Shown: piece by piece, positions 15,305 through 35,804 of the stretch
Layout: every line of letters starts with the position of its first letter
Position numbering within the stretch: the first letter of the stretch is position 1
NCBI RefSeq assembly: GCF_000730165.1
Contig: NZ_CP022113.1
Span: forward strand, 682,001-746,000
From: Nitrospirillum viridazoti CBAmc
GTDB lineage: Bacteria; Pseudomonadota; Alphaproteobacteria; Azospirillales; Azospirillaceae
Length of the DNA: 64,000 nucleotides
Direction of reading: 5' to 3'
The notes under the pieces: generated by a model
What the model saw: only the letters and a program-made list of their open reading frames with translations
Told to the model about the DNA's origin: nothing
Databases searched by the model: none
Made by a program: the position numbers and the translations under genes

Positions 15305-15613
15305 TCAGGCAAGCTCGACCGACAGCAGGCGCGCGAACTGCTGACCGCCATGCATGTCGCGCTCATGCCGCCAGCCTTGGGGGTGCGGCCGGGGGTAGGA
15401 GATCTTGATCATGCGCAGCGCGTCCACCGGCACACGCTTCACGCCGGCCGGGTCCGTGCCGAACAGGCGGGCGAACAGGTCCGGCCCCAGCTCCGGCGCG
15501 TCACGATAGCGCGCGAAACTGTCGTCGTCGGCGAAAAAGAAATCCACGGTGATCCAGAACGGACCGGCGTTCTTCGACCGGACATGCCGGCACACTTCAG
15601 CGATCTTAGGCAT
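15305..15613 (-). CDS. DUF4387 family protein
   Basis: 102 aa starting MPKIAEVCRHVRSKNAGPFW; its family (DUF4387) is regularly coded next to AtuA/DUF1446 proteins and is sometimes fused to them, so it is probably a small subunit. The ATG overlaps the 3' end of the atuA-like gene by 8 nt; longer in-frame starts would run far into that gene. The function is undetermined. Confidence 0.8.
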   Translation of the reverse strand: MPKIAEVCRHVRSKNAGPFWITVDFFFADDDSFARYRDAPELGPDLFARLFGTDPAGVKRVPVDALRMIKISYPRPHPQGWRHERDMHGGQQFARLLSVELA

Positions 15614-17021
15614 GTGGCGTCTCCAGATGCTCAACGGTACCGGTCGATGACACGTCCACCCAATCCGTCCTGACCAGTTCGAACCCGTCCTCGGTCTCGA
15701 CGACATGGTTGAGCATGAATTCATAGACACGCCCGCGCGGGATCTCGGCCGGCGTGAAGGGGAAGGCGTAGCTGGGCAGTTCCATGTCGAAGCGTATCGG
15801 CATGTGGAAGAAATAGGGGTTGCAGGACCGCGCCATGCGGTCGGCCAGGTCCTGGGTGCGCGCTGTCACCACGAACAGCACGCCCACGTCGCGCGGGGGT
15901 GGGGTATCGGCGGGCACGGGCTGGCCGGACGTGCCGTTCCAGCCGTAGAGGCGCAGCGAGACCTCGAAATTGCCCGCCTCATCGCCGAAGGTGGCGGCGA
16001 TGCGGTCCACCAGCGTCTTGTGCATGCGGTCGTGGAATTCATCGAGGTTGGCCAGGACTTCCGGATCCTCGATACCGATCAGCATGATGGTCTGGTAGTC
16101 GCCGCCACGGGCCCCTTCCAACTTCATGGTGTAGGGCATAGGCCGCCAGATGGAGCCGACGACCCGGGTGATGCGCGGCTCGACCTGGGTGTAGACCGCC
16201 TCCTTGGCGTCCAGGATGCCGCCCGGTTCCACCAGCAGGAAGGGATCGCTGTTCTCATACAGCAGGTGGGCCGAGACGCTTTCGGGTGTGCAGCGGTTGC
16301 CGAGGTCCAAAGGTTCCATGTCGAAGTGGTCGGCCCCGACATGCATCAGCACGCCGCCCCGTCGCAGGTTGGTCGTGCACTGCCCGCCGCATTCGGCGAT
16401 CTTGGCCGCGTGCCAGGTCTGGGCCACGCCGGCGCCCCGCATCAGGGGCACGGCCGACAGCACGGCGGTGTCGGTGGTCCTGCCGCCCAGCACCAGGTTG
16501 GCACCGCGCTGGACGGCGTCCATGTAGGGCTCCGGCCCCATCAGGGCCACGATGTGGTCGCAGGCGTCGAACAACTCATCGGTGGCTTGGCCCAGCGGCG
16601 CCAGCGGCCGGATCTTCCCCTGCGCCAGCTTGCGCTTCAGCACCGCCGCCGGCTGTTCGCTGTACAGGCAGGCGATGCGCAGTCCTATGCCCAGTTCCCG
16701 CGCCACCTCGATGGCGATGTCGCGGGTCCAGTCCACGCTGGCGTCCGCGCCACAGGTGCCGCAGGTGCCCACCAGCACCGGTATGCCGGCCTCATTGGCC
16801 ATCTGCAGCAGGACGAGGAGATCCTGCTTGATCGACTCCCGGTTCATCTTGGAGACGCCGCGCGCCAGATAAGAGGGCCCGCTGTCCGTCGAACCGGCGT
16901 CGATGGCGATGGCGTGGGCGCCCTGGGCCAGGCCATAGGCGATGTGTTCCCGTTTCACTCCCGCACCGAGCATTCCGCTCGGCACGATGACCTTGGTCAC
17001 CGTCCGTTCCAACTCCGACAT
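15606..17021 (-). CDS. AtuA-family protein (DUF1446, acyclic terpene utilisation type)
   Basis: 471 aa. The family signature VIVPSGMLGAGVKREHIAYGL is at the N-terminus (seen in two parts), with TCGTCGADASVDW and LVLGGRTTDTAVLSAVPLMRGA in outline. Named for Pseudomonas AtuA, needed for growth on citronellol/geraniol; the biochemical role is unclear. First gene of the operon with DUF4387, MFS, HyuB and HyuA. The start is uncertain: ATG at 17021 or at 17060; the former matches relatives better. Confidence 0.82.
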   Translation of the reverse strand: MSELERTVTKVIVPSGMLGAGVKREHIAYGLAQGAHAIAIDAGSTDSGPSYLARGVSKMNRESIKQDLLVLLQMANEAGIPVLVGTCGTCGADASVDWTRDIAIEVARELGIGLRIACLYSEQPAAVLKRKLAQGKIRPLAPLGQATDELFDACDHIVALMGPEPYMDAVQRGANLVLGGRTTDTAVLSAVPLMRGAGVAQTWHAAKIAECGGQCTTNLRRGGVLMHVGADHFDMEPLDLGNRCTPESVSAHLLYENSDPFLLVEPGGILDAKEAVYTQVEPRITRVVGSIWRPMPYTMKLEGARGGDYQTIMLIGIEDPEVLANLDEFHDRMHKTLVDRIAATFGDEAGNFEVSLRLYGWNGTSGQPVPADTPPPRDVGVLFVVTARTQDLADRMARSCNPYFFHMPIRFDMELPSYAFPFTPAEIPRGRVYEFMLNHVVETEDGFELVRTDWVDVSSTGTVEHLETPHA

Positions 17022-17098
17022 TTCCTGGTGTCCCGTCCGTCTATTCTTAGCAACATGCATAACAAACTTGACCGACGCTACGGAGTAAGGGATAAGTC

Positions 17099-17125: not shown

Positions 17126-18309
17126 ATGGTCGACGACGACTACATATCGGCCGAAGAGGCCGCGGCGCTGCTGGGTGTCACCATCGACACCTTCTACGTC
17201 TATGTGACGCGCAAGAATTTGCGGTCCACGGGCATTCCCAATTCGCGCAAGCGCCGCTATTGGCGCGCCGACGTGGAACAGCTGCGCGGCCGCGGCCGCA
17301 AGCCGCCGGCCAGTCCGACGGACCTGGACGGCGAAAGCTCCATCACCCTGCTTACCGAGGACAATCTGTTCTACCGGGGGCAGAGCGTCCGGGAACTGGT
17401 GAACCGGCCCACCTTCGAAAGCGTGGCCGCCCTATTGTGGGACGTGGACGCCGACGCGGTGTTCGGCGAGTCGCTGCCGGCGTTTCCCGACACGGTCAAG
17501 GCGGTGAGCCACGCGTTGGTGGGGGAGTCGCCCATGGATCAGGCCATCGCCCTTTTCCCCCTGATCGAAAGGGCAAATCCGCGCTCGCAGGATTTCTCGC
17601 CGGCCGGCATGGCCCGGACGGGTGGCGACGTGCTGCGCGCCTTCACGGCACTGATTGCCGGGCATGACCGCCCCGACCGCAGAGCCCTCCACGTGAGCAT
17701 CGCCGAGGCCTTCGGCCTCACCGACCGCCAGGCGGCGCTGTTGCGGCGTGTCATGATCCTGGCCGCCGACCATGGGCTGGAGCCCGCGACCTTCGCCGTG
17801 CGGGCGATCGCCAGCACCGGCGTCTCGCCGTGGCGGGCGGTGTCCACCGGCCTGACCTCGCCATCGCCATCGGCCGCAAGACGCGGCCGGTCCAGTTCGC
17901 CGCCATCGGCCGGCTGGTCAAGGAAATCGTTGAAACGGAACGGCCTTTCGAGCCCATCACCCGCCGTGTCCAGGAAGGCGACGCCATCGCCGGCTTCCTG
18001 CCCGCCACCAGCGGCCGCGACGTACGTGCCACCGTCCTGCTGGACCTGCTGGAAGCCGACTATGCGCGCGACGCCGACTTCCAGCGCCTGATGGCGGCCA
18101 TCGGCGCGGCGCGGGACATCGGCGGCTACGAGCCGAGCTTCTCCCTGCTGGGCGGATTTGCCGGACTGAAGCTCGGCTTACGCTCGCGCGAGGCCACCTT
18201 TTTCCTGGCCCGCGCCGCCGGCTGGATCGCCCACGCCATCGAGCAGAGCCTGGGCGGCGAGCGCGAGCGCCATGAGCCGCACTATCGCGGGCCCCTACCC
18301 GGCCTGTGA
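17126..18309 (+). pseudogene. HTH-citrate-synthase-like gene, frameshifted
   Basis: Begins with an excisionase/MerR-like HTH (YISAEEAAALLGVTIDTFYV) fused to a citrate-synthase-like domain (ITLLTEDNLFYRGQSVRELV, then DHGLEPATFAVRAIASTG). The family match leaves the first frame after about residue 245 (near 17860). It resumes in the +1-shifted frame from about 17850 (FAAIGRLVKEIVE) to the stop at 18307, ending AAGWIAHAIEQSLGG as in real citrate synthases. Neither frame shows the catalytic His of the usual RHGG loop or the GHPLYP loop. It is therefore a decayed gene or a non-catalytic regulator with a sequencing error. It is divergent from the atuA operon and overlaps the next gene's 3' end. Confidence 0.7.
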
Positions 18310-22064: not shown

Positions 22065-22685
22065 TTAAAGATAGACCCAGGGGCGGCGTTCCCTGTCCGC
22101 CTGGCGCTTCGCCTGGATCTCCGCCCGGCGCAGCAGCGTCAGGTCGATGGCATCCAGGCCGTGCAACAGCATCTCCCGCGCCTCCGGCTCGATGCTGAAG
22201 GAATGGGTGCCGCCGTCCGGCGCGGTCACCATCTGGTGCCGCAGGTCCACCGTCACCAGCCGGGTGCGCGGCGCCTGGGCCGCCGTTGACGCGATCCAGG
22301 TGATCGCGTCCGTGGGCAGTTCCACCGGCACGATGCCGTTGCGCACGCAGTTGCCGCGGAAGATGGGGTTGAAGGACGGGGCCAGGATGGCGCGGAAGCC
22401 ATACTCGGCCAGCGCCCAGGCGGCGTGTTCCCGGCTGGAGCCGCAGCCGAAATTCTCCCCCGCCAGCAGGATGGCCGCCCCCCGGTAGACCGGGTCATTC
22501 AGCACGAAATCGGGGTTGGGGACGCGGCCGCCCACGGCGGTGTAACGCCAGCCGGCGAACAGCCCGTCGGCCAGGCCCTTCTTGGAGACGGACGTCATCT
22601 CGCGCGAGGGGATGATGGCGTCGGTGTCGATGTTGGGCCGCAGCAGCGGCACGGCAACGGCGGTCAGGATAGTGAACGGCGTCAC
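22065..22685 (-). CDS. LeuD-like small subunit of an aconitase-family hydro-lyase
   Basis: 206 aa with LeuD landmarks: TAVAVPLLRPNIDTDAIIPS at the start, GENFGCGSSREHAAWAL and NPIFRGNCVRNGIVPV. Forms a heterodimer with the LeuC-like protein encoded just upstream. The start is GTG at 22685, following the leuC stop without a gap. The family contains isopropylmalate isomerase, citraconate/citramalate and maleate hydratases and dimethylmalate dehydratase. Context here (CoA transferase, HMG-CoA-lyase-like enzyme, GntR) argues for a catabolic member rather than leucine synthesis. Confidence 0.88.
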   Translation of the reverse strand: MTPFTILTAVAVPLLRPNIDTDAIIPSREMTSVSKKGLADGLFAGWRYTAVGGRVPNPDFVLNDPVYRGAAILLAGENFGCGSSREHAAWALAEYGFRAILAPSFNPIFRGNCVRNGIVPVELPTDAITWIASTAAQAPRTRLVTVDLRHQMVTAPDGGTHSFSIEPEAREMLLHGLDAIDLTLLRRAEIQAKRQADRERRPWVYL

Positions 22686-22686
22686 A

Positions 22687-24090
22687 TCAAACCTCCAGCA
22701 GGCGGGGATCGGCCAGGCGGCCGGCCACGGCCGACGCCGCCACCGTTTCCGGCGATGCCAGGTGGGAGCGGGTCTCCGGCCCCTGCCGGCTTTCGAAATT
22801 GCGGTTGGTGGAGGTGACCACGCGCTGGCGATGACCGAAGCTCTCCCCCCCGGCGAAGAAGCACATTGAGCAGCCGGCCTCCCGCCACTCGAAACCCGCG
22901 TCCAGGAAGACGCGGTCCAGCCCCTCGGCCTCCGCCTCGGCCTTCACCCGGCTGGAGCCGGGCACGCAGATGGCCCGCACCCCCGCCGCCACCTTGCGGC
23001 CGCGCAGCAGGGCCGCCGCCCGGCGCAGGTCCTCCAGCCGGCTGTTGGTGCATGAGCCGATGAAGGCGGCGTCGATGGGCAGGCCCACCAGCGGCGCGCC
23101 GGGCGTCACCGCCATGTAGGACAGGGCGCGGTCATAGGCCTCCCGCGTGTTGTGGTCGGCCACGTCCTGGAAAGCGGGCACCGGCTGGTCCAGGGGCACG
23201 GCGTGCTGGGGACTGTTGCCCCAGGTGATCATGGGCGCCACCGCCCCGGCATCGAGGGTGATGGTGCGGTCGAACACGGCACCGTCATCGCTGTACATCT
23301 GCCGCCAGGCGGCCACCGCCTGGTCCCACCGGGCCCCCTTAGGCGCGTAGGGGCGGCCCTGGAGATAGTCGAACACCACGTCATCCGGGGCGATGATGGC
23401 GGTGAAGGCGGCGAATTCCGTGGCCAGGTTGCACAGGGTCAGCCGTCCCTCGACGCTCAGCGCCCGCACCGCCTCCCCGGCGTATTCCACGACATGGCCC
23501 CTGGCGCCGCCGGCGCCATGGCGGGCCAGGATGTGCAGCGCCAGGTCCTTGGACGTGACGCCCTGGGCCAAACGGCCGTTGACCGTCACCCGCATGGTGC
23601 GCGGCCGGCGCACCCGCAGGGTGCCCGTAGCCAGCGCGTGCTCCGCCTCCGTCGAGCCGATGCCCCAGGCCAGCGCGCCCAGCGCCCCTTGGCTGCAGGT
23701 GTGGCTGTCGGGGCAGACCAGGGTCAGGCCGGGCAGCACGATGCCCTGCTCCGGGGAGATGACGTGGACGATGCCCTGGCGCGGGTCGCCCAGGTCGAAC
23801 AGGGTGATGCCGGCCGCCCGCGCCGCCGCCCGGGTGGCGGTGATGAAGGCGGTGCCGGTGGGCATGATGGTGCGGTCGCCCCGGCCCGGCAGCGTGTCGA
23901 CGACATGGTCCATGGTGGCGAAGACTTGGCCGGGCGCCATGACCTTCCGTCCCGCCGCCGCCAGGCTTTCCAGCGCCACGCCGCCCGTGCGCTCATGCAA
24001 CAGCACGCGGTCGACCAGCAGCAGTTCGGTCCCGCCGCCCAGGTCGGCCACCTGATGCTCCGCCCAGATTTTTTCGAAGATGGTCCGCAT
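22687..24090 (-). CDS. LeuC-like large subunit of an aconitase-family hydro-lyase
   Basis: 467 aa, full length for LeuC. The iron-sulfur cysteines are in FIGSCTNSRLEDL and AGCSMCFFAGG; the DSHTCSQGALGALAWG region is present. Start chosen at MRTIFEKIW (24090), as in LeuC proteins. Carries the [4Fe-4S] site for reversible hydration of an unsaturated diacid. Divergent from the gntR gene with a perfect operator between them, a setting unlike biosynthetic leuC. Confidence 0.9.
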   Translation of the reverse strand: MRTIFEKIWAEHQVADLGGGTELLLVDRVLLHERTGGVALESLAAAGRKVMAPGQVFATMDHVVDTLPGRGDRTIMPTGTAFITATRAAARAAGITLFDLGDPRQGIVHVISPEQGIVLPGLTLVCPDSHTCSQGALGALAWGIGSTEAEHALATGTLRVRRPRTMRVTVNGRLAQGVTSKDLALHILARHGAGGARGHVVEYAGEAVRALSVEGRLTLCNLATEFAAFTAIIAPDDVVFDYLQGRPYAPKGARWDQAVAAWRQMYSDDGAVFDRTITLDAGAVAPMITWGNSPQHAVPLDQPVPAFQDVADHNTREAYDRALSYMAVTPGAPLVGLPIDAAFIGSCTNSRLEDLRRAAALLRGRKVAAGVRAICVPGSSRVKAEAEAEGLDRVFLDAGFEWREAGCSMCFFAGGESFGHRQRVVTSTNRNFESRQGPETRSHLASPETVAASAVAGRLADPRLLEV

Positions 24091-24123
24091 GCCTGTCAAT
24101 GCCCGCCTGCCAAGGGTCACTTC

Positions 24124-24147
24124 ATTTGTTATATTTCTATAACAAAT
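24124..24147. promoter_or_regulatory. GntR operator 1 (leuC-like/gntR divergent promoter)
   Basis: Perfect inverted repeat: arms ATTTGTTATA and TATAACAAAT with spacer TTTC. A variant (TTGATATA-N4-TATAACAA) lies at 26247-26266 in the next divergent promoter. Both flank the GntR regulon, so this is very probably the regulator's binding site. Confidence 0.75.
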
Positions 24148-24215
24148 TGCGAGGGCGCGCCAGCCGGTAAAAAACCGCTATAACCCGCAAGGGCACGCAG
24201 GACGGATGGAGGGCG

Positions 24216-25007
24216 GTGGTGAAGGAAGCCAAGGGGGTCGTGGACCGGCAGGGGGCCGTGCCGCTGTACCATCAACTGTTCCTGACCTTGCGGGACGAGA
24301 TCACCAGCGGCCAGCGCGCCTATGGCAGCGCCGTGCCCACGGAACTGGACCTGGTGCAGATCTACGGCGTGTCGCGCATCACGGCCCGGCGCTGCCTGGA
24401 CGAACTGGCGAACAGCGGGCTGGTGGAACGTCGGCGGCGCATCGGCACCCGCGTGATCTTCCAGACCCCCGTGCGGCCGCTGGAAGCCAACATTGACCAG
24501 GCGGTGGATTCGCTGGTGGCCTTTGGCCAGAACACCCAGGTCCGCGTGATCGACATCGCGGAGGAAGCGGCCGGCCCCGCCGTGGCCCAGCGTTTCGGCC
24601 TGCCCGCCGGGGCCGCCCTGGTGCGCGCCGTGCGCGTCCGCTCTCTGGATGGGGCGCCGCTGGGCGAGGTCGTCAGTTATGTGCCCGCCCGCCTCGGGCC
24701 GTTGATAACGCGGGAGAACCTGACCACCAAGCCCATGCTGGCCCTATTGCGCGGCGCAGGCATCGGCATCGGCCACGCCCGGCAGACCATCGCCGCGGTC
24801 TCGGCCGACGCCGCCCTGACCGCCGCGCTGGAGGTGGAACCCCGCGCGCCCCTGTTGCGCATCGAGCGGCTGGTCAGCGACAGCGCCGGGCAGCCCATCC
24901 TGCTGACCATCGCCCACTACCGCGCCGACCGCTACCAGATCACGCTGGACCTGGGCGCCGCCGGCGGCGGCGATGCCGGCGCGCTAGGCACCCAGGTCCA
25001 TTCCTGA
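24216..25007 (+). CDS. GntR-family regulator of the HutC/UTRA type
   Basis: 263 aa. Winged HTH at about residues 15-80 (PLYHQLFLTLRDEITSG, then YGVSRITARRCLDELANSGL), followed by a UTRA effector-binding domain (LVRAVRVRSLDGAPLGEVVSY). The start is GTG at 24216 after GGAGGG; no usable ATG is in frame nearby. Likely a repressor of the leuCD-like and caiB/HMG-lyase units through the two matching inverted repeats. The effector is probably a pathway acid. Confidence 0.9.
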   Translation: MVKEAKGVVDRQGAVPLYHQLFLTLRDEITSGQRAYGSAVPTELDLVQIYGVSRITARRCLDELANSGLVERRRRIGTRVIFQTPVRPLEANIDQAVDSLVAFGQNTQVRVIDIAEEAAGPAVAQRFGLPAGAALVRAVRVRSLDGAPLGEVVSYVPARLGPLITRENLTTKPMLALLRGAGIGIGHARQTIAAVSADAALTAALEVEPRAPLLRIERLVSDSAGQPILLTIAHYRADRYQITLDLGAAGGGDAGALGTQVHS

Positions 25008-25008
25008 C

Positions 25009-26199
25009 TCATCCCACCACGCCGCGCGTGCGCCAGGCGCCGATCTCCGCCGCCCCATAGCCCAAACCGGCCAGGATGTCGTCGGCGTCCGCGCCCGCCT
25101 CGGGGATGTCATGGTGCAGGCCGGGACGGCAACCGTCGAATTCCAGCGGCAGGGCCGGCAGCCTGGTGGCGGGGCCGCCGGGGATGGTGACATCCAGCAG
25201 GCCGCCCTCGGCGTTCAGATGGGCGTCGTCGAACAGCTCGTCCGGCCGCGTGATGGGGGCGAAGGGCAGGCCCACGCCTTCCAGCCGCTCCACCAGGGCG
25301 GCGCGGTCTTCGTTGGCGAACAGGGCGCGCACCCGCGGCAGGATGACGTCGCGCGCCAGCACCCGGTCGTTGTTGCGGGCGTAGGCGGGATTGCCGCCAA
25401 GATCCTCCAGGCCGAAGGCCGTGCAGAAGGCCTGCCATTGCCCGTCGCTGACCACGCCTACGAACAGCAGTTCCCCTTCCCGTCGGGTCTCGAACACGTC
25501 GTAGATGGCCCAGGCGGACAGGCGCACGGGCATGGGCTGCACCGCCTTCCCCGTCACCGCCTGCTGGGCCATGTGCTGGCCGACCAGGAAGGCCGTGGTC
25601 TCGTAGAGGGAACATTTGACGGCCCCGCCCCGCCCGGTCTGCTGCCGGCGCAGCAGGGCGGCCAGGATGCCGATGACACCGAACATGCCGCCGGTGATGT
25701 CCACAACCGACGAGCCAGCGCGCAGCGGCCGGCCCGGCGGCCCGGTCATGTAGGCCAGGCCGCCCATCATCTGCGTCACCTCGTCCAAGGCGGTGCGGTG
25801 TTCATAGGGACCCGCCAGGAAGCCCTTGGCCGAGCAGTAGACCAGCCCCGGGTTGCTCTGGGCCAACGCCTCAGGCCCCAGGCCCAGCCGTTCCAGCGTG
25901 CCAGGGCGGAAGTTCTCCACCAGCACGTCGGCACCATCCACCAGGCGCCGGGCGATGGCCAGACCCTCGGGGCTCTTCAGATCCAGGCACAGGCTGCGCT
26001 TGTTGCGGTTGAACATGGGGAAATAGCCGGCGCCGGAGCCCAGCAGCCGGCGCGTCTGGTCCCCGCCCATGGGTTCCACCTTGATCACCGTGGCGCCCAG
26101 GTCGCCCAGGATCACCCCCACCGACGGCCCCATGACCATGTGGGTGAATTCAACCACCGTGACACCGGCCAACGGCAGCGCGTCCCTGTCCATATCCAT
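25009..26199 (-). CDS. CaiB/BaiF family CoA-transferase (class III)
   Basis: 396 aa starting MDMDRDALPLAGVTVVEFTH, with class III features GDLGATVIKVEPMGGDQTRR, NRNKRSLCLDLKSPEG and a central NITGG-like VDITGGMFGV. Moves CoA from a donor such as succinyl-CoA to an organic acid. GGGAGA lies 5 nt before ATG 26199. Beside a LeuCD-type hydratase and an HMG-CoA-lyase-like enzyme, activation of a citramalate-like hydroxyacid is the simplest reading. Convergent with gntR, with the stop codons 1 nt apart. Confidence 0.88.
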   Translation of the reverse strand: MDMDRDALPLAGVTVVEFTHMVMGPSVGVILGDLGATVIKVEPMGGDQTRRLLGSGAGYFPMFNRNKRSLCLDLKSPEGLAIARRLVDGADVLVENFRPGTLERLGLGPEALAQSNPGLVYCSAKGFLAGPYEHRTALDEVTQMMGGLAYMTGPPGRPLRAGSSVVDITGGMFGVIGILAALLRRQQTGRGGAVKCSLYETTAFLVGQHMAQQAVTGKAVQPMPVRLSAWAIYDVFETRREGELLFVGVVSDGQWQAFCTAFGLEDLGGNPAYARNNDRVLARDVILPRVRALFANEDRAALVERLEGVGLPFAPITRPDELFDDAHLNAEGGLLDVTIPGGPATRLPALPLEFDGCRPGLHHDIPEAGADADDILAGLGYGAAEIGAWRTRGVVG

Positions 26200-26246
26200 T
26201 CTTGTCTCCCGCCACATCCGCTTCGGGCTCGACAGGCCCTTTTTAA

Positions 26247-26266
26247 TTGATATAGACTTATAACAA
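26247..26266. promoter_or_regulatory. GntR operator 2 (caiB/HMG-lyase divergent promoter)
   Basis: TTGATATA and TATAACAA arms, 4-nt spacer; one mismatch from operator 1 in the left arm, right arm identical. It lies between the divergent caiB and HMG-lyase-like genes, 48 bp from the caiB start and 37 bp from the lyase start. Confidence 0.65.
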
Positions 26267-26303
26267 TAAAACAAGCGGGCCGATGGGGCCGGGAGACAAG
26301 AGC

Positions 26304-27242
26304 ATGGCAGCTGGGGACGTCCTGATCAGTGAGGTGGGGCCGCGTGACGGCCTGCAAAGTATCACCGCCATCATGCCGCTGGCGGCCAAGAAGGCCTGGA
26401 TCACAGCGGAAGCCGCGGCCGGCGTGCGGGAGATCGAGGTGGGCAGCTTCGTGCCGGCCAAGCTGCTGCCGCAGCTGGCGGACACGGCCGAGGTGGTGGC
26501 CCATGCCAAGACCATCCCCGGCCTGGCCGTCGCGGTGCTGGTGCCCAACGCGCGCGGGGCGGAGGCGGCCATCCAGGCCGGCGCCGACAAGCTAACCCTG
26601 CCCCTGTCAGTGTCGGAGACGCACAGCCTGCGCAACCTGCGCCGCACCCACGCCCAGGTGATGGAGGAGGCGAAGGCCATCGCCGCTATGATCGCCGCCC
26701 TGCCCCCTGACCGGCGCCCGCATTTCGAGGGCAGCCTGTCCACCGCCTTCGGCTGCACCCTGGAAGGCCCCATCCCCGACAGCCAGATCGCCCGCCTGGC
26801 GGAGGAGCTGATGGCCGCTGGCTGCGATGAGGTCGGGCTGTCGGACACGACGGGCTATGCCGATCCGGCCAGCGTGCGCCGCCTGATCAAGCTGGTCCGC
26901 GACACCGTCGGCGCCGACGCCCTGACCGGCATCCATCTGCACAACACGCGCGGCCTGGGCCTGGCCAACGCCCTGGCGGCGCTGGACGCCGGGCTGACCA
27001 CGCTGGACAGCTCACTGGGGGGCTTGGGCGGCTGCCCCTTCGCGCCCGGCGCCTCCGGCAACATCGTCACCGAGGACCTGGCCTTCATGCTGGAAGCCAT
27101 GGGCGTCCGCACGGGCATCGACCTGGACGCCCTGTTCGCCGTGCGGACCATCCTGGCGGACGCGTTGCCGGGCGAACCGCTGTACGGCTTCATTACCGCC
27201 GCCGGCCTGCCGTTGGGCTTCAAGCCCGCTGATCACCACTGA
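26304..27242 (+). CDS. HMG-CoA-lyase-like enzyme (HMGL family)
   Basis: About 312 aa TIM-barrel aldolase. Diagnostic motifs are SEVGPRDGLQ (residues 9-18), the metal ligands HLH at about 211-213, and the catalytic-Cys loop GLGGCPFAPGASGN near 244. It cleaves 3-hydroxy-3-methylglutaryl-CoA or a related 3-hydroxyacyl-CoA such as citramalyl-CoA. ATG 26304 is preceded by GGGAGACAAGAGC, almost identical to the caiB leader. First gene of a four-gene plus-strand operon with the isochorismatase and two deacetylase-fold genes. Confidence 0.88.
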   Translation: MAAGDVLISEVGPRDGLQSITAIMPLAAKKAWITAEAAAGVREIEVGSFVPAKLLPQLADTAEVVAHAKTIPGLAVAVLVPNARGAEAAIQAGADKLTLPLSVSETHSLRNLRRTHAQVMEEAKAIAAMIAALPPDRRPHFEGSLSTAFGCTLEGPIPDSQIARLAEELMAAGCDEVGLSDTTGYADPASVRRLIKLVRDTVGADALTGIHLHNTRGLGLANALAALDAGLTTLDSSLGGLGGCPFAPGASGNIVTEDLAFMLEAMGVRTGIDLDALFAVRTILADALPGEPLYGFITAAGLPLGFKPADHH

Positions 27243-27254
27243 GGGAGACGTCGC

Positions 27255-27938
27255 ATGACCATCGTCGGCACGCGCATGATCCGGGATGACCGGACGGCCC
27301 GCCAGATTTTCGAAGACGTGATGGCCAATCCAGCCCGGACCAAGTTCGGCTTCGGCGAGAAACTGGCCATCGTCAACGTGGATTTCCAGAACGCCTATAC
27401 CCGCATCGACGAGTTCAAGACGGCTTATGAGACCGATCCCCGGCAGATCGAACATGTGAACCGCATCTCCGCCCTGGCGCGGGCCAAGGGCATGCCGGTC
27501 ATCTGGACCCACGTGGCCTATGCCGAGGATGCCGGCGACGCCGGCGTCTGGGGCACCCGGACCAACACGCCGGACAGCCTGCAGAACATCAAGTATGGCA
27601 GCCGGCGGCACGCCTTCGACGACCGGTGCGAAATCGATACGACCGTCGACGCGATTTACACCAAGCGCATGCCGTCGGCCTTTTTCGAAACGCCGCTGGC
27701 CAGCTATCTGGTCTGGCACAAGGTGGACACGGTCATCGTCACCGGCGGTTCCACCTCCGGCTGCGTGCGGGCGACGGCGGTGGACTCCCTCAGCCGCGGC
27801 TATCGCACCATCGTTCCCATCGAAACCTGCGCCGACAAGCACGAGAGCTATCACTTCGCCAACCTGACGGACCTGCAGCTGAAATACGCGGATGTCGAGC
27901 CGGTGCAGACGGTGGTCGACTGGCTGGAGGCGCGGTGA
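27255..27938 (+). CDS. Isochorismatase-family amidase (N-carbamoylsarcosine/maleamate-amidase-like)
   Basis: 227 aa cysteine hydrolase. The catalytic triad is visible: Asp 43 (NVDFQNAYT), Lys 137 (YTKRMPSAF) and Cys 170 (GGSTSGCVRATAVD). Relatives hydrolyse N-carbamoylsarcosine, maleamate, nicotinamide or ureidoacrylate. In this operon, opening of an amic acid to the diacid plus ammonia would fit. The stop overlaps the next start by 1 nt (TGATG). Confidence 0.88.
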   Translation: MTIVGTRMIRDDRTARQIFEDVMANPARTKFGFGEKLAIVNVDFQNAYTRIDEFKTAYETDPRQIEHVNRISALARAKGMPVIWTHVAYAEDAGDAGVWGTRTNTPDSLQNIKYGSRRHAFDDRCEIDTTVDAIYTKRMPSAFFETPLASYLVWHKVDTVIVTGGSTSGCVRATAVDSLSRGYRTIVPIETCADKHESYHFANLTDLQLKYADVEPVQTVVDWLEAR

Positions 27939-28873
27939 TGGGCACGGCACCCCAAAACCCCGTGGTCAACGATCCCGGGCTGTACGATTTCCGCCCCTAT
28001 CGCGACCGGCACCCCATCCGCTGGCCGGGCGACAAGCCCATCGCCGTCTGGATCTCACCCAACCTCGAATTCTACGAGATCGACCCGCCGGCCAACCCCT
28101 TCCGCAAAAGCTGGACCAAGCCCCATCCCGACGTGGTCGGCTACAGCCACCGCGACTACGCCAATCGCGTCGGCCACTGGCGCATGGCGGAGGTGATGGA
28201 GCGTCACGGCTTCAAGGGCACGGTGTCCCTGTCCGTGGCGCTGTGCCAGCACCATCCCGAAGTGGTGGAGAACGCCAACGCCCTGGGCTGGGAGTTCTTC
28301 AGCCATGGCATCTACAACACCCGCTACACCTACGGCATGGATGAGGCCCAGGAACGGGCCATCATGGAAGACAGCATCCGCACGGTGCAGGAGGCCACGG
28401 GCCAGCGCATCCGGGGCTGGCTGGCCCCGGCCCTGACCCACACCACCCGCACCATGGACCTGCTGGCGGAGATGGGCTTCACCTACACCTGCGACCTGTA
28501 CCACGACGACCAGCCGGGGCCGGTGCATGTGGCACGGGGGCGCCTGGTTTCCATGCCCTACAGCCTGGAGGTCAACGACCACTACGGCTTCGCCGTCTAC
28601 AACATGAGCCCCCGGGAATACGCCGACACCCTGATCCGCCAGTACGAGCGCCTGGCGCGGGAGGGGGAGGCGTCGGGCACGGTGATGTGCATTCCGCTGC
28701 ACAGCTATCTGATCGGCCAGCCGCACCGCATCGGCCCGTTCGAGGAGGTGCTGCGCCACATCGCCGCCGACGGCCGCGCCTGGATCACCCGGGCCGGCGA
28801 CATCGCCGAGCATTTCCTGGCCCACGATTACGACGCGGTGGCGGCCGAAACCGCGCACCCGGCAGCGGAGTAA
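27938..28873 (+). CDS. PuuE-like polysaccharide-deacetylase-fold hydrolase 1
   Basis: 311 aa of the NodB/CE4-like fold, in the branch that includes the metal-independent allantoinase PuuE rather than sugar deacetylases. The text shows WPGDKPIAVWISPNLEFYEI, YSHRDYANRVGHWRMAEVM, GWEFFSHGIYNTRY and GWLAPALTHTTRTMDLL. There is no signal peptide, so it acts in the cytoplasm. Probably opens a cyclic amide or imide. It starts on the isochorismatase stop codon. About 40% similar in outline to the next gene. Confidence 0.82.
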   Translation: MGTAPQNPVVNDPGLYDFRPYRDRHPIRWPGDKPIAVWISPNLEFYEIDPPANPFRKSWTKPHPDVVGYSHRDYANRVGHWRMAEVMERHGFKGTVSLSVALCQHHPEVVENANALGWEFFSHGIYNTRYTYGMDEAQERAIMEDSIRTVQEATGQRIRGWLAPALTHTTRTMDLLAEMGFTYTCDLYHDDQPGPVHVARGRLVSMPYSLEVNDHYGFAVYNMSPREYADTLIRQYERLAREGEASGTVMCIPLHSYLIGQPHRIGPFEEVLRHIAADGRAWITRAGDIAEHFLAHDYDAVAAETAHPAAE

Positions 28874-28879
28874 GCGCCC

Positions 28880-29797
28880 ATGTCCCTTGATCCTTCATAT
28901 CTGGAGTATCCCCGCCGCCGCCGGGGCATGGACCATGACCTCTACCCCTGGTCCAACCTGTTCGACCGCCCGGCCGTCAGCTGGCCGGGGGGCAAGGGCG
29001 TCGCCGTCTGCGTCGTGGTCAGCCTGGAATGGTTCCCCCTGACACCGGCGGACAAGCCCTTCCGGGCACCGGGGCATATGCAGACCCCCTTCCCCGACTA
29101 TCGCCACTACACCTCCCGCGACTACGGCACCCGCATCGGCTTCTACCGGCTGCTGGACGCCTTCGCCGCGGTGGGGGCCAAGGTGTCGGTCGCCGTCAAC
29201 GCGGCCATCGCCCAGCGCTATCCCGCCGTCATCAGCGAGATCATCGCGGCGGGCCATGAGATCATCGCCCATTCCACCGACATGAACGGCACCATCGCCG
29301 CCGGGCTGGAGGAAGAGGCGGAGCGCGCCCTGATCGGCACCGCGCTGGATGTGCTGGAACAGGCGACGGGCACGCGACCGGCCGGCTGGCTGTCCATCGC
29401 CCGCTCGCAGTCCTGGAACACGCCCCGCCTGCTGGCCGAGGCCGGCGTGCGCTACATGTGCGACTGGGTGAACGACGACCTGCCCTATGCCATGCGGACC
29501 CCGGCCGGCGACATCATGAACGTGCCGCTGAGCCATGAACTGTCCGACCGGCAGATCGTGAACGTGCTGCAGCAGTCGGCCGACAGCTACGTGCGTCAGA
29601 TCCAGGACGCCTACACCTGGCTGGACCGGGAATCCCGCACTTACGGCGGGCGCCTGCTGCCGCTGCAGGTGACGCCCTACATCCTGGGCCTGCCCTACCG
29701 CATCGACGCCTTCGACGGCCTGCTGCGCTGGCTGAAAGACCGGGACAACAGCTGGTTCGCCACCGGGTCGGAGGTGGTCGGCGCCACGCCGCGCTGA
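28880..29797 (+). CDS. PuuE-like polysaccharide-deacetylase-fold hydrolase 2
   Basis: 305 aa, the same branch as the preceding gene and probably a diverged paralogue or partner. Landmarks: SWPGGKGVAVCVVVSLEWFP, HYTSRDYGTRIGFYRLLD, GHEIIAHSTDMNGTIAAG and GWLSIARSQSWNTPRLL. No signal peptide. Six nt after the previous stop. The tandem pair recalls two-subunit or two-substrate cyclic-amide hydrolases; the substrate is unknown. Followed by a good terminator. Confidence 0.82.
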   Translation: MSLDPSYLEYPRRRRGMDHDLYPWSNLFDRPAVSWPGGKGVAVCVVVSLEWFPLTPADKPFRAPGHMQTPFPDYRHYTSRDYGTRIGFYRLLDAFAAVGAKVSVAVNAAIAQRYPAVISEIIAAGHEIIAHSTDMNGTIAAGLEEEAERALIGTALDVLEQATGTRPAGWLSIARSQSWNTPRLLAEAGVRYMCDWVNDDLPYAMRTPAGDIMNVPLSHELSDRQIVNVLQQSADSYVRQIQDAYTWLDRESRTYGGRLLPLQVTPYILGLPYRIDAFDGLLRWLKDRDNSWFATGSEVVGATPR

Positions 29798-31190: not shown

Positions 31191-33500
31191 TCAGAACTTG
31201 TAGTGCGCCCGCACATCCCAGGTCATGGGCGGGTTCAGGTAGATGGAGGTCGCCGACAGGAAGGAGACCTTGTAGGTCCGGTCCGTGCAGTTCTTGCAGC
31301 CGACCGACAGGGTGAGGTTCGGCACCTTCGCCGGCTCGTAGGCCAGGTTCAGGTTCCACAGCACCTGCGGATCGGTCCAGGCGCCGTCCGTGCTGTCGGT
31401 GTTGCCGGCGTTGCCGATGGCGTAGCCGTTGTTGTAGTCGAAGCCGACGGTGGGCCGGAAGATGCCGGCCTCGGTGTCGATCTGGTAGGTCGCCGTCACC
31501 AGGCCGGTGAAGTCCGGCGCGCGCACCGGACGGGCGATACGGCCCTTGAAGTCGACGAAGCCCCGGTTGCAGTTGTTGGAGATGCCGGAGCTGTTGTTGG
31601 ATGCCAGCGCCGCCTGGCAGGCCGCCATCTGCGCCTGGACATCGCTGGAGATATCGATGTAGCGCGCGTGCTGCACACCGATGGAGCCGCTGAAGGTCAG
31701 GCCCCGGATGGGCACCCACTCCGCCTCCAACTCACCGCCGTAGTTACGCAGGCCGGCCGGGTTGGTGGTGGTGAAGATGCGCTGGCCGTTGACGGTATAA
31801 GCCGCGGAAATCTGCACGTCCTCCGCCTCGCTGTAGAAGGCGGTGGCGTTCAGGCGCAGCGTGTGGTCCAGGAAATCGCCGCGCATGCCCACCTCTTCCG
31901 ACCACACCTTTTCCGGCTTGAAGGCCAGGAACAGGTTGTTGGCCAGGGCGCGGCCGTTCCAGCCGCCCGACTTCTCACCCCGGGTGGCGGAGGCGTAGAC
32001 CATGAGACCGGGGTCGATCTGGTAGGACAGGGCGAACCGGGGCGTCACGAACTCGTTTTCCAGGTCCGTCGGGATGCCGGCGGCCTCGATCAGGGCGGTG
32101 CTGAACAGCGGCCCCTTGCCCCCGGCGTTGGTCGCGACCTTCAGCTGCTTCTCCTCCTTCGACAGGCGGACGCCGACGGTGGCGGTCAGCGCGTCGGTCA
32201 GCTTGTAGTCGCCCTGGGCGTAGGTGGCGTAGGAGTCCAGCGTGTTCTTGATGGTGCGGTCGCCACTGACCGTGAAGCCGGAGGCGGTGCCGACCCCCGT
32301 ACCCAGGTCGGTCCAGTTGTTCTCATGCAGGTAATAGAAGCCAACGGTATAGTTCAGGCGGTTGTCCAGCGCCTGGCCATTGGCCTTGAACTCCTGCGAC
32401 CACTGCTGGTGCAGGCTGTAGTTCAGGATGGGGGACACGCCCGTGGCGACGGGATTGGGCGCTGCCGGGTTGGAGTCGATGAAATAGCGCTGGGTGGTCT
32501 GGCGGAAGCCGGTGATGGAGTTCAGCGTCAGGTCGTCCAGTTCCCAGGCGGCGTTGGAACTCAGCGACCAGCTCTTGGTGGAGTTGCCGACCTCGTTATT
32601 GGCCTTGGTGCCGGTGAAGTATTTGGCCAGCGCGCCCTGGGTGATGCCGATGGTGGCGATGCGGTCGCCCGTCGCCGGATCGACCCGGTTGATCAGATTG
32701 GCCTCGTTCTCATCGACGTAGTCGCCGGCCAGGTCGATGGTCACCCGGTCCGTCGGCAACAGGCGGACGGCACCCCGCACACCGTAGGAGTCCGTGCCGT
32801 TCAGCTTGTCGCCGGTGTTGACCTGCCGAACGTAGCCGTCGCTGCGGTCGCGGTACATGCTGACCTTGGTCAGCACCTTGTCCGACAGGGGCGCGTCCAT
32901 GCTGGCCCGGATGTCGGTCTCACCGAAGCGGCCGGCGCCGGCCTCCAGATAGCCGCCGGCGGTGGCCGAGGGCTTCTTCATGATGACGTTGATGGCGCCG
33001 CCGGTGGTGTTGCGACCGAACAGCGTGCCCTGGGGACCGCGCAGCACCTCGATGCGTTCCACATCGAACAGGCCGAAGTTGTTGGCGTTCTGGCGCGAGA
33101 TGTAGACGTCGTCGACATAGGTGCCCACCGGCACGTCCTGCGTGGCGATGGACTCCGTGTTGCCGATGCCGCGGATGTAATAGGTGTTGGAACTGCCCAG
33201 GCCGACGTTGTTGTTGCCGATCAGGTTGGGGATGTGCTGGATCAGGTCGATGGTGTCGCGGATCTGCCGGTCCTGCAGATCCGCCGCCCCCAGCGACGAC
33301 ACGGCCAGCGGCACGTCCTGCAGGTTCTGCTGACGGCGCTGGGCCGTCACGATGATTTCCTCAAGCTGGCTGGCATCGGCCGCCTGCGGCGCCGCCGGCT
33401 GGGCCGTGGAAGGGCCAGCCGATTGCGCCAGGGCAGGCATGGCCGCCAGCGCGCCCAGCAAGGCAAGGATGGAAACTCCCCGAATTTTACCCGTCATCAT
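31191..33500 (-). CDS. TonB-dependent outer-membrane receptor
   Basis: 769 aa. Signal peptide ALLGALAAMPALAQ ends at about residue 26, then TonB-box region LEEIIVTAQRRQQNLQDVP, plug (YYIRGIGNTESIATQD, LRGPQGTLFGRNTTGGAIN) and a beta-barrel ending WDVRAHYKF. The start is MMTG with GGGAG upstream. Last gene of a six-gene operon headed by the MFS gene at 38086, so it should bring the same substrate through the outer membrane that the MFS protein takes through the inner one. Confidence 0.92.
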   Translation of the reverse strand: MMTGKIRGVSILALLGALAAMPALAQSAGPSTAQPAAPQAADASQLEEIIVTAQRRQQNLQDVPLAVSSLGAADLQDRQIRDTIDLIQHIPNLIGNNNVGLGSSNTYYIRGIGNTESIATQDVPVGTYVDDVYISRQNANNFGLFDVERIEVLRGPQGTLFGRNTTGGAINVIMKKPSATAGGYLEAGAGRFGETDIRASMDAPLSDKVLTKVSMYRDRSDGYVRQVNTGDKLNGTDSYGVRGAVRLLPTDRVTIDLAGDYVDENEANLINRVDPATGDRIATIGITQGALAKYFTGTKANNEVGNSTKSWSLSSNAAWELDDLTLNSITGFRQTTQRYFIDSNPAAPNPVATGVSPILNYSLHQQWSQEFKANGQALDNRLNYTVGFYYLHENNWTDLGTGVGTASGFTVSGDRTIKNTLDSYATYAQGDYKLTDALTATVGVRLSKEEKQLKVATNAGGKGPLFSTALIEAAGIPTDLENEFVTPRFALSYQIDPGLMVYASATRGEKSGGWNGRALANNLFLAFKPEKVWSEEVGMRGDFLDHTLRLNATAFYSEAEDVQISAAYTVNGQRIFTTTNPAGLRNYGGELEAEWVPIRGLTFSGSIGVQHARYIDISSDVQAQMAACQAALASNNSSGISNNCNRGFVDFKGRIARPVRAPDFTGLVTATYQIDTEAGIFRPTVGFDYNNGYAIGNAGNTDSTDGAWTDPQVLWNLNLAYEPAKVPNLTLSVGCKNCTDRTYKVSFLSATSIYLNPPMTWDVRAHYKF

Positions 33501-33552
33501 GAATGCTCCCGTTCTTTTGATTTGAAGGTGAGGGGCGTGCCCGCCCTCGCTC

Positions 33553-34377
33553 TCACCAGGCTGTTGGGTTGGCCGGCATTTCGCCGCGGTAGGCCTCCAT
33601 ATCCGGGGGCAACACCGGGTCGTAGGCCGGCCACCATTGGAAGGGCCGTTCCGCCTGGACGTAGTTCGTCGTCAGCGGGCCGCCCTTGGTGCGAAAGAAG
33701 TAAAGGTTGCCTGTCAGGGTGCCGTAAGGGCCGTGCGGCGCCTCCGGCGGCCGCCAGAAATAGGCGCCGGGCCGCATGACGCCGCGGTTGCCGTGCACCT
33801 CGCCGCTCAGCAGGTACATCTCCTCGACGGTGGGGTGAACCTCCGACCGTTCGGCCCAGCGCACCGGCAGGGTGCCCAGCAACCAGGAAACGTCGCCGGT
33901 GACCGGGTCCTTGTAGAGCATCTTGCGCCCGGCGCCCGGCGGGAACTCCGGATGGAAGTTACCGGTGTAAGGCACCTGGTAGCCGTCCAGCCGCACCACC
34001 AGGCGGGCGGGATCGTAGCCGGTGACCGGGACCGCCTGGTCAGGCGCCGCCGACAGGAAGGTCAGGACCACGGCGCCGCCGGGGCTGTTCAGCTCACCCC
34101 GCTCATACCCCGCCGGCAGGTGGGCGTAGGCCAGGTGGCCGTACTCCTGGCCGGCCATCGTCAGCGTGCCATCCAGGACCAGGAACTCCTCGTCCACCAC
34201 CAGGCGGGACGCCGGGGCGGTGAAGCCGGCGGGATAACGGACCAGCATGCTGACGGCACCCGTGGCGTCGTCATGGCTCAGGACCTTGGCCTCGACGCCG
34301 TCACGCAGGCCCCACAGGGTGTGGGGTTGCCAGGGAATGTATTGGGCTTGAATGAATTCGATCCAGGAACGCGCCAA
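33553..34377 (-). CDS. DUF4437-like bicupin protein
   Basis: 274 aa with two cupin-like halves: the first around DDATGAVSMLVRYPAGF and LVVDEEFLVLDGTLTMAG, the second around VTGDVSWLLGTLPVRWAE and HPTVEEMYLLSGEVHGN. The EExxVLxG pattern of cupin sensors/enzymes is visible in both. Metal ligands are only partly conserved to the eye. Function unknown; it could be a small-molecule dioxygenase, isomerase or binding protein of the operon. Confidence 0.7.
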   Translation of the reverse strand: MARSWIEFIQAQYIPWQPHTLWGLRDGVEAKVLSHDDATGAVSMLVRYPAGFTAPASRLVVDEEFLVLDGTLTMAGQEYGHLAYAHLPAGYERGELNSPGGAVVLTFLSAAPDQAVPVTGYDPARLVVRLDGYQVPYTGNFHPEFPPGAGRKMLYKDPVTGDVSWLLGTLPVRWAERSEVHPTVEEMYLLSGEVHGNRGVMRPGAYFWRPPEAPHGPYGTLTGNLYFFRTKGGPLTTNYVQAERPFQWWPAYDPVLPPDMEAYRGEMPANPTAW

Positions 34378-34403
34378 GATTCAGGCTCCTAACTGCAATG
34401 AAA

Positions 34404-34709
34404 TCAACGGGGGGCCGGGACTTCGCCCCGCAACGGTGCTTTGGGGTCGTCGCTTTCGCTCAAGATCCGCATCAGCTTGCGCATGGACACCTCCAGCTCG
34501 GCCCGCGACCGGGCCAGCACGGCGGCGTCCTCGGCCAGGGCGTCCGCCTGGCCCGGGGCGATGACGCCCACCCGGGCCAGCACCGTTTCCAGGGCCAGGC
34601 GCCGCGTGCGCTCGATGTGCAACTGGGACGCCAGTTCGAACACCAGACCGGTCAGGCGTTCCGCGTCGGGCGCCATGGGCGGCAAGGGGGGATAGCTTCG
34701 GTCGGTCAT
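34404..34709 (-). CDS. Small helical hypothetical protein
   Basis: 101 aa, MTDRSYPPLPPMAPDAERLT, then a helical, coiled-coil-prone segment (ELASQLHIERTRRLALETVL and ARSRAELEVSMRKLMRIL). The ATG overlaps the methyltransferase stop by 4 nt (ATGA), so it is a genuine, coupled gene. It could be a small partner subunit of the methyltransferase. No family recognised. Confidence 0.6.
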   Translation of the reverse strand: MTDRSYPPLPPMAPDAERLTGLVFELASQLHIERTRRLALETVLARVGVIAPGQADALAEDAAVLARSRAELEVSMRKLMRILSESDDPKAPLRGEVPAPR

Positions 34710-35755
34710 TGCGGCTTCTCCGCTTCCAGCACGGCCCAGGGGAAATGCCACTCGGCACGGGTGGGCCAGGACAGGTCGGACAGGCGGCCGCCCCCCCGTT
34801 CGTCGAAGGCCACCCAGCGGGCGTTCACCAGGCCGGCGGCGGCGGCCATGGCCGGCAGGTCGGCGGCGATCATGGGCGGCAGGAAGGGCTCGTTGTTGCG
34901 GGCGCCGTGTTCCACCATGGCTAGGTCGCGCAGGCCGTCGCCGGTGCGCTGGAAATCCAGGAAGCGCAGCACGCCGCCGGGGGCCAGCAGGCGCGACGCC
35001 TCCGTGAATATCGCCGGCAGCACGTCAACCGGCACCTCATGCACGAACATGGTGGAGGTGACGAGGTCGGCGCTCCCCTCCTCCAGCCCGGTGGCCGTCG
35101 CATCGGCCTGACGGAAGCGGACGGCCAGCTTGCGCTCGCTGGCCCGGCGGGCGGCCAATTCCACGCAGGGCAGCGCCAGGTCCACGCCGATGACCTCGGC
35201 CTCCGGATGCGCCTGCTTCAGCGGCCAGGCGGACTTGCCGAAGCCGCAGCCGAGATCGACCATGCGGCGATAGGACCGCTTGGGCAGCGCGGTTTCCACG
35301 AACAGGCGGTGGAAGGCGTAGTCGTCATTCTCCCCCAGCATCACCAGTCGGGCACCCAGTTCATAGACCCGGCCGGCCAGGTCGTGCGACCACACCCCGC
35401 CCGGCTGCACGTGGATGTCCCAGTCGGTGTACCAGTCCGGCAGCACCAGGTCGGGATCCACCTCCACCGTGGCCGGCCCGTCGGGCCCCGGCGGCAACGC
35501 GCCCTGGCGGACCACCGCGTCGGATACGGCCCGCCACAGCATCTTCTGCGACCCGCGCTCCAACCAGGAGAACCACGGGTAGGTGGCCAGCCCATGCACC
35601 AGCGGCGCCAGGCTTTCGGGGTCGTTCACCGGCACCGGCGACGGCACCGCGGCGTCGAAGTCGGCCCGCAAGCGGGGATAGACCGTTCCGGCCCAATGCC
35701 GCCGCAGGCTCAGCACAAAATCCAGAGCAGCCCTGTCCTCAATGGCCAAAGCCAT
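34706..35755 (-). CDS. Class I SAM-dependent methyltransferase
   Basis: 349 aa. The SAM-binding motif I is MVDLGCGFGKSAWPLK at about residues 165-180, motif II acidic in VIGVDLALPCVELA, and the post-motif LAPGGVLRFLDF is present. About 150 residues precede the fold, probably for substrate recognition. Sits between the VOC gene and a small coupled protein. Substrate unknown; O- or C-methylation of a carboxylated compound is only a guess. Confidence 0.85.
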   Translation of the reverse strand: MALAIEDRAALDFVLSLRRHWAGTVYPRLRADFDAAVPSPVPVNDPESLAPLVHGLATYPWFSWLERGSQKMLWRAVSDAVVRQGALPPGPDGPATVEVDPDLVLPDWYTDWDIHVQPGGVWSHDLAGRVYELGARLVMLGENDDYAFHRLFVETALPKRSYRRMVDLGCGFGKSAWPLKQAHPEAEVIGVDLALPCVELAARRASERKLAVRFRQADATATGLEEGSADLVTSTMFVHEVPVDVLPAIFTEASRLLAPGGVLRFLDFQRTGDGLRDLAMVEHGARNNEPFLPPMIAADLPAMAAAAGLVNARWVAFDERGGGRLSDLSWPTRAEWHFPWAVLEAEKPQ

Positions 35756-35804
35756 GATACTGCCTCCATGTCTTTATTGGCTTTTTGCTTGCTGTCGGCG
35801 TCGG

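Follow-up and report, generated by a model that had tools for sequence, protein, structure and literature searches.

A cluster of eight genes lies at positions 22065-29797 of a 64,000-nucleotide stretch of the genome of the soil bacterium Nitrospirillum viridazoti CBAmc (hereafter the window, with a G+C content of 67.6%), on contig 4 of a 7.38-Mb genome of four contigs. From left to right, it consists of leuD (22065-22685, minus strand) and leuC (22687-24120, minus strand), coding for the small and large subunits of a LeuCD-type hydro-lyase; gntR (24216-25007, plus strand), coding for a GntR/UTRA (HutC-type) regulator that is probably the repressor of the cluster; caiB (25009-26217, minus strand), coding for a family III CoA-transferase; hmgl (26283-27242, plus strand), coding for an acyl-CoA lyase that resembles 3-hydroxy-3-methylglutaryl (HMG)-CoA lyase; a gene for an isochorismatase-family amidase, proposed to be a half-amidase (27255-27938, plus strand); and puuE1 (27938-28873, plus strand) and puuE2 (28880-29797, plus strand), coding for two PuuE-like hydrolases, the first of which is a proposed cyclic imidase. 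Their Pfam domains are, in the same order, Aconitase_C, Aconitase, GntR plus UTRA, CoA_transf_3, HMGL-like, Isochorismatase, and Polysacc_deac_1 (twice). An initial annotation of this DNA had placed the same eight families in one cluster, and profile searches recovered all of them at these coordinates. The cluster probably serves the inducible breakdown of a cyclic imide, of which a maleimide or succinimide carrying an alkyl group is the likeliest candidate.

The start of puuE1, at about 27938, overlaps the stop codon of the amidase gene; the puuE1 queries used below ran from 27956 or 27959 and began six or seven residues into the protein. The caiB open reading frame reaches 26274 only by way of a TTG start codon, and a start at 26217 or 26199 is more likely, because a start at 26274 would place an operator inside the gene. 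The same genes, with 92-98% identity, are present in Nitrospirillum amazonense BR 11880 (locus L087) and Azospirillum sp. B4 (L035).

Recurrence of the seven-enzyme set

A search of genome contigs with puuE1 gave 370 matches, and the best 80 of these, minus L035 and L087 as members of the window's own species group, served as a conservation sample of 78 loci. These loci were chosen by similarity, are mutually related, and are mostly from Sphingomonadales by record title; the cut-offs for presence, in bits and identity, were set by us. All seven enzyme genes occurred together in 58 of the 78 loci (50/65 among loci longer than 20 kb). The gene set is thus not a chance neighbourhood, and the search for it in other genomes that the initial annotation had proposed gave a positive answer. 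Taken singly, puuE2 was found in 78 loci, always with puuE1 on the same locus, the amidase gene in 77, leuC in 61, leuD in 60, caiB in 61, hmgl in 62, and a related gntR in 37. Among the open-licence papers listed by literature searches, none described this gene set, as judged from titles and abstract openings, in agreement with the initial annotation, which knew of no described pathway with exactly this set. The enzymes are of known kinds in a combination that apparently has not been characterised.

Paired operators and a shared regulon

Both divergent gaps of the cluster contain a close copy of the sequence TTGTTATAN4TATAACAA. Operator 1 (TTGTTATATTTCTATAACAA; 24126-24145), between leuC and gntR, has no mismatch, and operator 2 (TTGATATAGACTTATAACAA; 26247-26266), between caiB and hmgl, has one. 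With up to three mismatches allowed, these are the 2 sites of the window, compared with a mean of 0.00 over 100 shuffles, and the two matching operators seen in the initial annotation are thereby borne out. At the same stringency, the 78 loci contained 99 occurrences in 48 loci, and there were none in the simulated control, which for the operator and locus counts was a single Markov-1 simulation. With up to four mismatches, an operator lay by the start of hmgl in 31 of the 32 loci where hmgl is joined by a related gntR; the corresponding figures were 13 of 30 for loci with hmgl that lack a related gntR, and 0 of 62 for simulated regions. The HutC and PhnF family models gave no hint of the effector of the GntR protein.

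A weight matrix found further sites in relatives upstream of genes for vicinal-oxygen-chelate (VOC) proteins (c12, c19), methyltransferases (c15, c54), TonB-dependent receptors (c49, c116), a major facilitator superfamily (MFS) transporter (c34), and a short-chain dehydrogenase/reductase (SDR; c74). This matrix was trained on sites upstream of hmgl, so that its matches count as independent only where they precede genes other than hmgl; a single shuffle served as the control. Because VOC, methyltransferase, TonB-receptor, and MFS genes of relatives likewise have the operator in front of them, the regulon extends beyond what was seen in the initial annotation.

The LeuCD, CaiB, and HMGL-like proteins

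The gene families of LeuC, LeuD, and HMG-CoA lyase are those of leucine metabolism, and the cluster could accordingly be read as an isopropylmalate isomerase (LeuCD) and a leucine-catabolic HMG-CoA lyase that lie beside the amidohydrolases by chance. LeuD scores 235.7 bits with NF002458 and 200.9 bits with the equivalog model TIGR00171, above its cut-off of 116.25; LeuC scores 689.9 bits with NF009116 and 550.7 bits with TIGR00170, just below the cut-off of 560.25. Residues C357, C417, and C420 of LeuC, which we take to be the Fe-S cluster ligands, are at least 98% conserved among 59 relatives. The hallmarks of HMG-CoA lyase are its catalytic residues and a GGLGGCP loop. The HMGL-like protein (NF004283, 273.7 bits, cut-off 246) keeps both, as judged from alignment and conservation, and R21, D22, H218, H220, and C251 are retained in at least 98% of 62 relatives.

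A reading as leucine metabolism is, however, contradicted by paralogues. The genome has other leuC genes at C1:273321 and at C2:1831272, where a leuD gene comes next, and another HMGL protein (463.3 bits) is encoded beside a biotin carboxylase gene and enoyl-CoA-hydratase-, carboxyltransferase-, and acyl-CoA-dehydrogenase-like genes, that is, in a liu-type operon; one TGA was flagged within its matched stretch, and an open reading frame of 300 residues spans the model. The initial annotation had allowed for a chromosome without a further leuCD copy, and the genome turned out to have these. In addition, the loop that follows the DTD motif of LeuD sets substrate choice, and it reads SREM in the cluster LeuD versus KQFL in the other LeuD of the genome. 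SRE[MI] was present in 58/58 copies, from 58 of the 78 loci, that a strict pattern caught, and the set is conserved together with the amidohydrolases. Leucine synthesis and catabolism were therefore set aside, and we regard them as scarcely credible functions of the cluster.

The CaiB-type protein matches CoA_transf_3 with 360.9 bits and falls below the NCBIfam equivalog cut-offs for succinyl-CoA:mesaconate CoA-transferase (181.3 versus 700 bits) and succinate:glutarate CoA-transferase (221.9 versus 750 bits).

Proposed ring opening and amide hydrolysis

The two PuuE-like proteins have the PuuE structures 3cl6 and 3qbu among their solved relatives, and TIGR03212 (PuuE) is the best NCBIfam match of both, which at the level of sequence places them in the PuuE-type family. 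An allantoinase function was rejected for either protein, as PuuE1 (123.1 bits) and PuuE2 (102.0 bits) do not reach the allantoinase cut-off of 424.6 and a separate protein of the genome passes it with 534.6 bits. A further PuuE-family protein encoded outside the cluster (C1:2830624-2831427) also scores below the cut-off, with 143.4 bits. Imide opening is the leading reading for the PuuE-like proteins, by analogy, because HxnM, a cyclic imidase, is related to PuuE: as far as the available part of the source describes it, HxnM acts in nicotinate use in Aspergillus and is kin to the cyclic imide hydrolase (CIH) of Pseudomonas putida and, more distantly, to PuuE (PMC9304392). In three other loci (L142; L145, L146), PuuE1/PuuE2-like pairs adjoin xanthine-dehydrogenase-type hydroxylases, which suggests an N-heterocycle route that may use the same ring-opening pair.

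The catalytic triad of isochorismatase-family amidases is Asp-Lys-Cys. D43, K137, and C170 of the window amidase, presumably this triad, are kept in at least 98% of 76 relatives and align to 4l07, which together with 4l08 is the closest solved structure. Unrelated amide hydrolases accompany or replace this enzyme in other clusters with a PuuE pair: amidases adjoin the isochorismatase in Salipiger; an amidase, an asparaginase, and a nitrilase lie near it in Terrarubrum; and Arthrobacter has, instead of the isochorismatase, an asparaginase encoded behind a xanthine-dehydrogenase-type hydroxylase. Such swaps and additions fit a predicted hydrolysis of an open-chain amide.

The same enzymes might instead serve a ureide or hydantoin, with the PuuE-like proteins opening a hydantoin-type ring, the isochorismatase-type enzyme cleaving an N-carbamoyl group to free ammonia and CO2, and LeuCD, CaiB, and the HMGL-like lyase taking over the carbon skeleton. 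Points in favour are the allantoinase activity of PuuE itself, the closeness of the amidase to the N-carbamoylsarcosine amidohydrolases 26st and 1nba, and the hydantoinase/oxoprolinase genes found near some clusters (L129, L136, L140) and about 8 kb from the cluster of the window. We nonetheless hold a ureide or hydantoin to be an unlikely substrate: both PuuE-like proteins score below the allantoinase cut-off that another protein of the genome passes, the recurring LeuCD, isocitrate lyase/phosphoenolpyruvate mutase (ICL/PEPM), and CaiB/HMGL routes suit diacids rather than amino acids, and related clusters include one with an asparaginase in place of the amidase and one with a nitrilase next to it. 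The window genes in question, upstream of the cluster at 10112-17060, code for hydantoinase/oxoprolinase A and B, an MFS transporter, and an AtuA-family protein.

Different lower routes beside one amidohydrolase trio

The trio of amidase, PuuE1, and PuuE2 was followed into more distant genomes. At the class level, 28 genomes matched (own included), and 20 loci of 19 genomes were taken, comprising the best matches down to 41% identity (E 2.7e-82); a second copy in one genome (G053), with 48% identity, was not extended. Fourteen weaker loci with puuE1 homologues at 35-43% identity, some on short contigs, served as controls. The split between the two sets was made by us, and their identity ranges overlap near 41-43%; the two weakest class-level loci (L133, L134) are, like the controls, devoid of LeuCD and ICL.

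Among the 20 class-level loci, 16 had the amidase beside the PuuE genes, 9 had LeuC plus LeuD, 11 had a lyase of the ICL/PEPM type, and 12 had either. HMGL was found in one, L118, which carries a LeuCD-CaiB-HMGL set. On a Sphingomonas plasmid, pJE1, a single trio is flanked by a leuDC-caiB/hmgl set and by one of leuCD-ICL, and plasmid p1 of B. plantarii carries ICL, a flavocytochrome-c/TcuA-like flavoprotein, LeuDC, GntR, and the trio. In L117, from the window's own family, GntR and the trio are accompanied by two CaiB proteins, an acyl-CoA dehydrogenase, a protein with a mesaconyl-CoA-hydratase domain, and a lyase of the HpcH/HpaI (CitE) type; L173, with ICL-, CitE-, MaoC-, acyl-CoA-dehydrogenase-, and CaiB-type genes, has a similar set. 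A second draw at the phylum level matched 6 of 299 genomes, own included, and four of the five other loci had a lower-route gene: besides L173, these were L171 (HMGL and GntR), L174 (LeuCD, ICL, and flavoprotein), and L175 (LeuCD, HMGL, ICL, flavoprotein, MmgE/PrpD, methyltransferase, and VOC genes), while L172 had none. The SRE[MI] loop recurs in LeuD of L118, L136, and L175, and the loops in LeuD of the ICL variants differ from it. None of the 14 control loci had LeuC, LeuD, ICL, CaiB, HMGL, a MaoC- or CitE-type protein, a flavoprotein, or an isochorismatase.

That such varied dicarboxylate-cutting chemistries stand beside one trio is the strongest evidence that the trio may supply a branched dicarboxylic acid. 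Flavoproteins of the succinate type adjoin some clusters and suggest that a substituted succinate might there be oxidised to the maleate ahead of hydration. Three of these loci (L135, L136, L137) are plasmid-borne; pJE1 was typed as mobilizable, and those of Acidiphilium JZ-6 and B. plantarii (p1) as conjugative, with transposase genes close by.

The lower routes also bear on plain maleimide as the substrate, which would pass through maleamate and maleate to D-malate by way of LeuCD, leaving CaiB and HMGL to some other substrate. Maleate hydratases of the LeuCD type exist, the structures closest to the amidase (4l07/4l08) are, we assume, those of a maleamate amidase, and a gene of the Asp/Glu-racemase family, possibly a maleate isomerase, lies near some clusters. 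However, a CoA-transferase and an HMGL-type lyase are both unnecessary for D-malate, whereas caiB is present in 61/78 and hmgl in 62/78 loci, and both the ICL/PEPM lyases (11/20 class-level loci) and the mesaconyl-CoA-hydratase-like partners (two loci) suit methyl-branched acids. Plain maleimide is in our opinion very unlikely.

The adjacent block and other genes of the window

Six further genes, all on the minus strand, follow the cluster at 31191-38086. They code for a TonB-dependent receptor (31191-33500; Pfam), a cupin-domain protein (33553-34377; Cupin_7), a small protein adjoining the methyltransferase (34404-34751), a protein with a class I S-adenosylmethionine-methyltransferase fold and an N-terminal helical extension (34706-35755), a two-module VOC-fold protein (35805-36704), and an MFS transporter (36707-38086; MFS_1, 143.7 bits). 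Receptors with at least 28% identity, a loose cut-off in receptor-rich bacteria, were present in 26 of the 78 loci, and an operator precedes the related receptors c49 and c116; the receptor is probably a member of the system. Distant homologues of the cupin protein were present in 8/106 loci, and homologues of the small protein in 3/106. The methyltransferase had a homologue in 33/106 loci by E-value, and family clusters in 40/78 loci; the corresponding VOC family clusters were in 23/78. MFS homologues with 44-48% identity occurred in eight loci (L048, L052, L053, L055, L073, L076, L082, L088). Relatives of all six proteins adjoin the cluster elsewhere, some of them behind the same operator. 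Thus, while the set at 22065-29797 stands as the initial annotation delimited it, it does not appear to be the whole system.

AlphaFold2 (AF2) models of the methyltransferase-fold and VOC-fold proteins had pLDDT values of 90 and 91.1, respectively; the top Foldseek match was DsyB (7wdq) for the former, and the latter matched glyoxalase I and VOC dioxygenases. Twelve loci (L036-L066 types and L100; for example, L045:11915-18678) share a block with a small protein, a methyltransferase, a VOC protein, an SDR, a flavoenzyme of the old yellow enzyme (OYE) type, and usually an HbpS-like protein. The flavoenzyme has matches below cut-off to models of bilirubin reductase and mycofactocin-OYE, and the VOC and/or methyltransferase genes of this block have operators in front of them.

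Two other genes of the window were noted. A citrate-synthase-like gene with an N-terminal extension (17126-18309) has a Pfam match in its first part only, with the remainder apparently in another frame, and looks frame-shifted or affected by a sequence error. A second family III CoA-transferase is encoded at 45035-46222, about 15 kb from the cluster.

Proposed route

An alkyl maleimide or succinimide fits best as the substrate, and we infer each reaction of the route, and their order, as follows. PuuE1 and/or PuuE2 would open the imide ring to a half-amide, from which the isochorismatase-type enzyme would release ammonia to give a maleic (or succinic) acid bearing the substituent. LeuCD with its SREM loop would hydrate the cis double bond to give a citramalate-like 2-hydroxy acid, onto which the CaiB-type enzyme would transfer CoA, and the HMGL-like lyase would cleave the resulting hydroxyacyl-CoA into an acyl-CoA (in the simplest case, acetyl-CoA) and a 2-oxo acid (pyruvate). 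Regulation may be by the GntR/UTRA protein, which would bind the paired operators and be released once an intermediate builds up. The TonB-receptor, MFS, VOC, and methyltransferase-fold genes probably serve the uptake and preparation of a larger parent compound. The logic of the initial annotation, namely ring opening, amide hydrolysis, hydration, CoA activation, and cleavage, thus gains support in the genes, both from the combination of the trio with three branched-dicarboxylate routes and from the alternative amidases in clusters with a PuuE pair.

Several observations weigh against a branched cyclic imide. In twelve of the 78 loci, leuC, caiB, and hmgl are all missing from the stretch in reach (L108 and L112, among these, are on short contigs), LeuCD and ICL are both absent from 8 of the 20 class-level loci, and the CaiB/MaoC/CitE route is known from two loci only (L117, L173). 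There are two PuuE paralogues, whereas one ring opening would not explain both. The amidase scores 104.9 bits with 4l07 versus 97.8 and 95.4 with N-carbamoylsarcosine amidohydrolases; because it is almost as close to these as to its best match, an N-carbamoyl substrate is possible. In the window, the matrix scan gave the 31191-38086 block no strong operator of its own, and the AF2 models and Foldseek matches of its VOC and methyltransferase-fold proteins point to general folds and hold no hint of a substrate. MmgE/PrpD genes, which lie beside a flavoprotein in L039, L043, and L057 and are also found in L118 and L175, were considered as a pointer to methylsuccinate; they were given little weight, because they are present in 3 of the 14 control loci as well. 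This did not alter our confidence in a cyclic imide, because the estimate rests on LeuCD, ICL, CaiB, and HMGL.

Relation to known systems

Parts of the proposed route have counterparts elsewhere. In anaerobic nicotinate fermentation, a LeuCD-type dimethylmaleate hydratase is followed by a dimethylmalate lyase of the ICL/PEPM type. This pair, likened here by description, resembles the LeuCD-ICL variants; however, its acid comes from nicotinate rather than from an imide or half-amide, and the window uses CaiB and HMGL. In Chloroflexus, a family III R-citramalate CoA-transferase is followed by an R-citramalyl-CoA lyase of the HMGL family, which by description is the same succession as in the window, but the Chloroflexus pair serves CO2 fixation and is not known to be accompanied by LeuCD or amidohydrolases.

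According to the available part of the source, CIH of P. putida and HxnM-HxnN of Aspergillus nidulans share with the window an imide opener related to PuuE and polysaccharide deacetylases, followed by amide hydrolysis to a dicarboxylate, a likeness at the level of family and description (PMC9304392). There, the substrate of HxnM is a six-membered piperidinedione and HxnN is another kind of amidase, and no LeuCD, CaiB, or HMGL step appears in the part available (PMC9304392). A cluster for itaconate/methylsuccinate degradation, as described in the portion available, uses a CoA-transferase and then a lyase that splits citramalyl-CoA into acetyl-CoA and pyruvate, as is proposed here; imide and amide hydrolases do not appear in that portion, and the gene sets of L117 and L173 resemble that cluster (PMC12290011).

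As for a natural substrate, the regulon might mineralise alkyl-maleimides and -succinimides from the breakdown of chlorophyll, bilins, or haem (methylethylmaleimide, hematinic acid, and their dihydro forms), with the TonB, MFS, VOC, and methyltransferase genes handling larger tetrapyrrole fragments, and LeuCD with CaiB/HMGL (or ICL-type) lyases cutting dialkylmalates to pyruvate and acyl-CoA. Maleimides of the chlorophyll type are reported from senescent leaves and sediments in the available part of PMC12860425. Strains with the cluster include two named Leaf2 and Leaf20, and no direct tie of its genes to tetrapyrroles was found; such an origin is a distinctly doubtful proposition.

If the proposed route is correct, it would provide a pathway of cyclic-imide catabolism, with a regulon defined by its operator, for many Sphingomonadales and other proteobacteria, in some of them on conjugative plasmids, and would join imide hydrolysis to the metabolism of branched dicarboxylates. 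It would also assign functions to genes annotated as leuCD, HMG-CoA lyase, and polysaccharide deacetylase, mark a subfamily of LeuD by its SRE loop, and offer a concrete candidate site for a microbial sink of natural maleimides.

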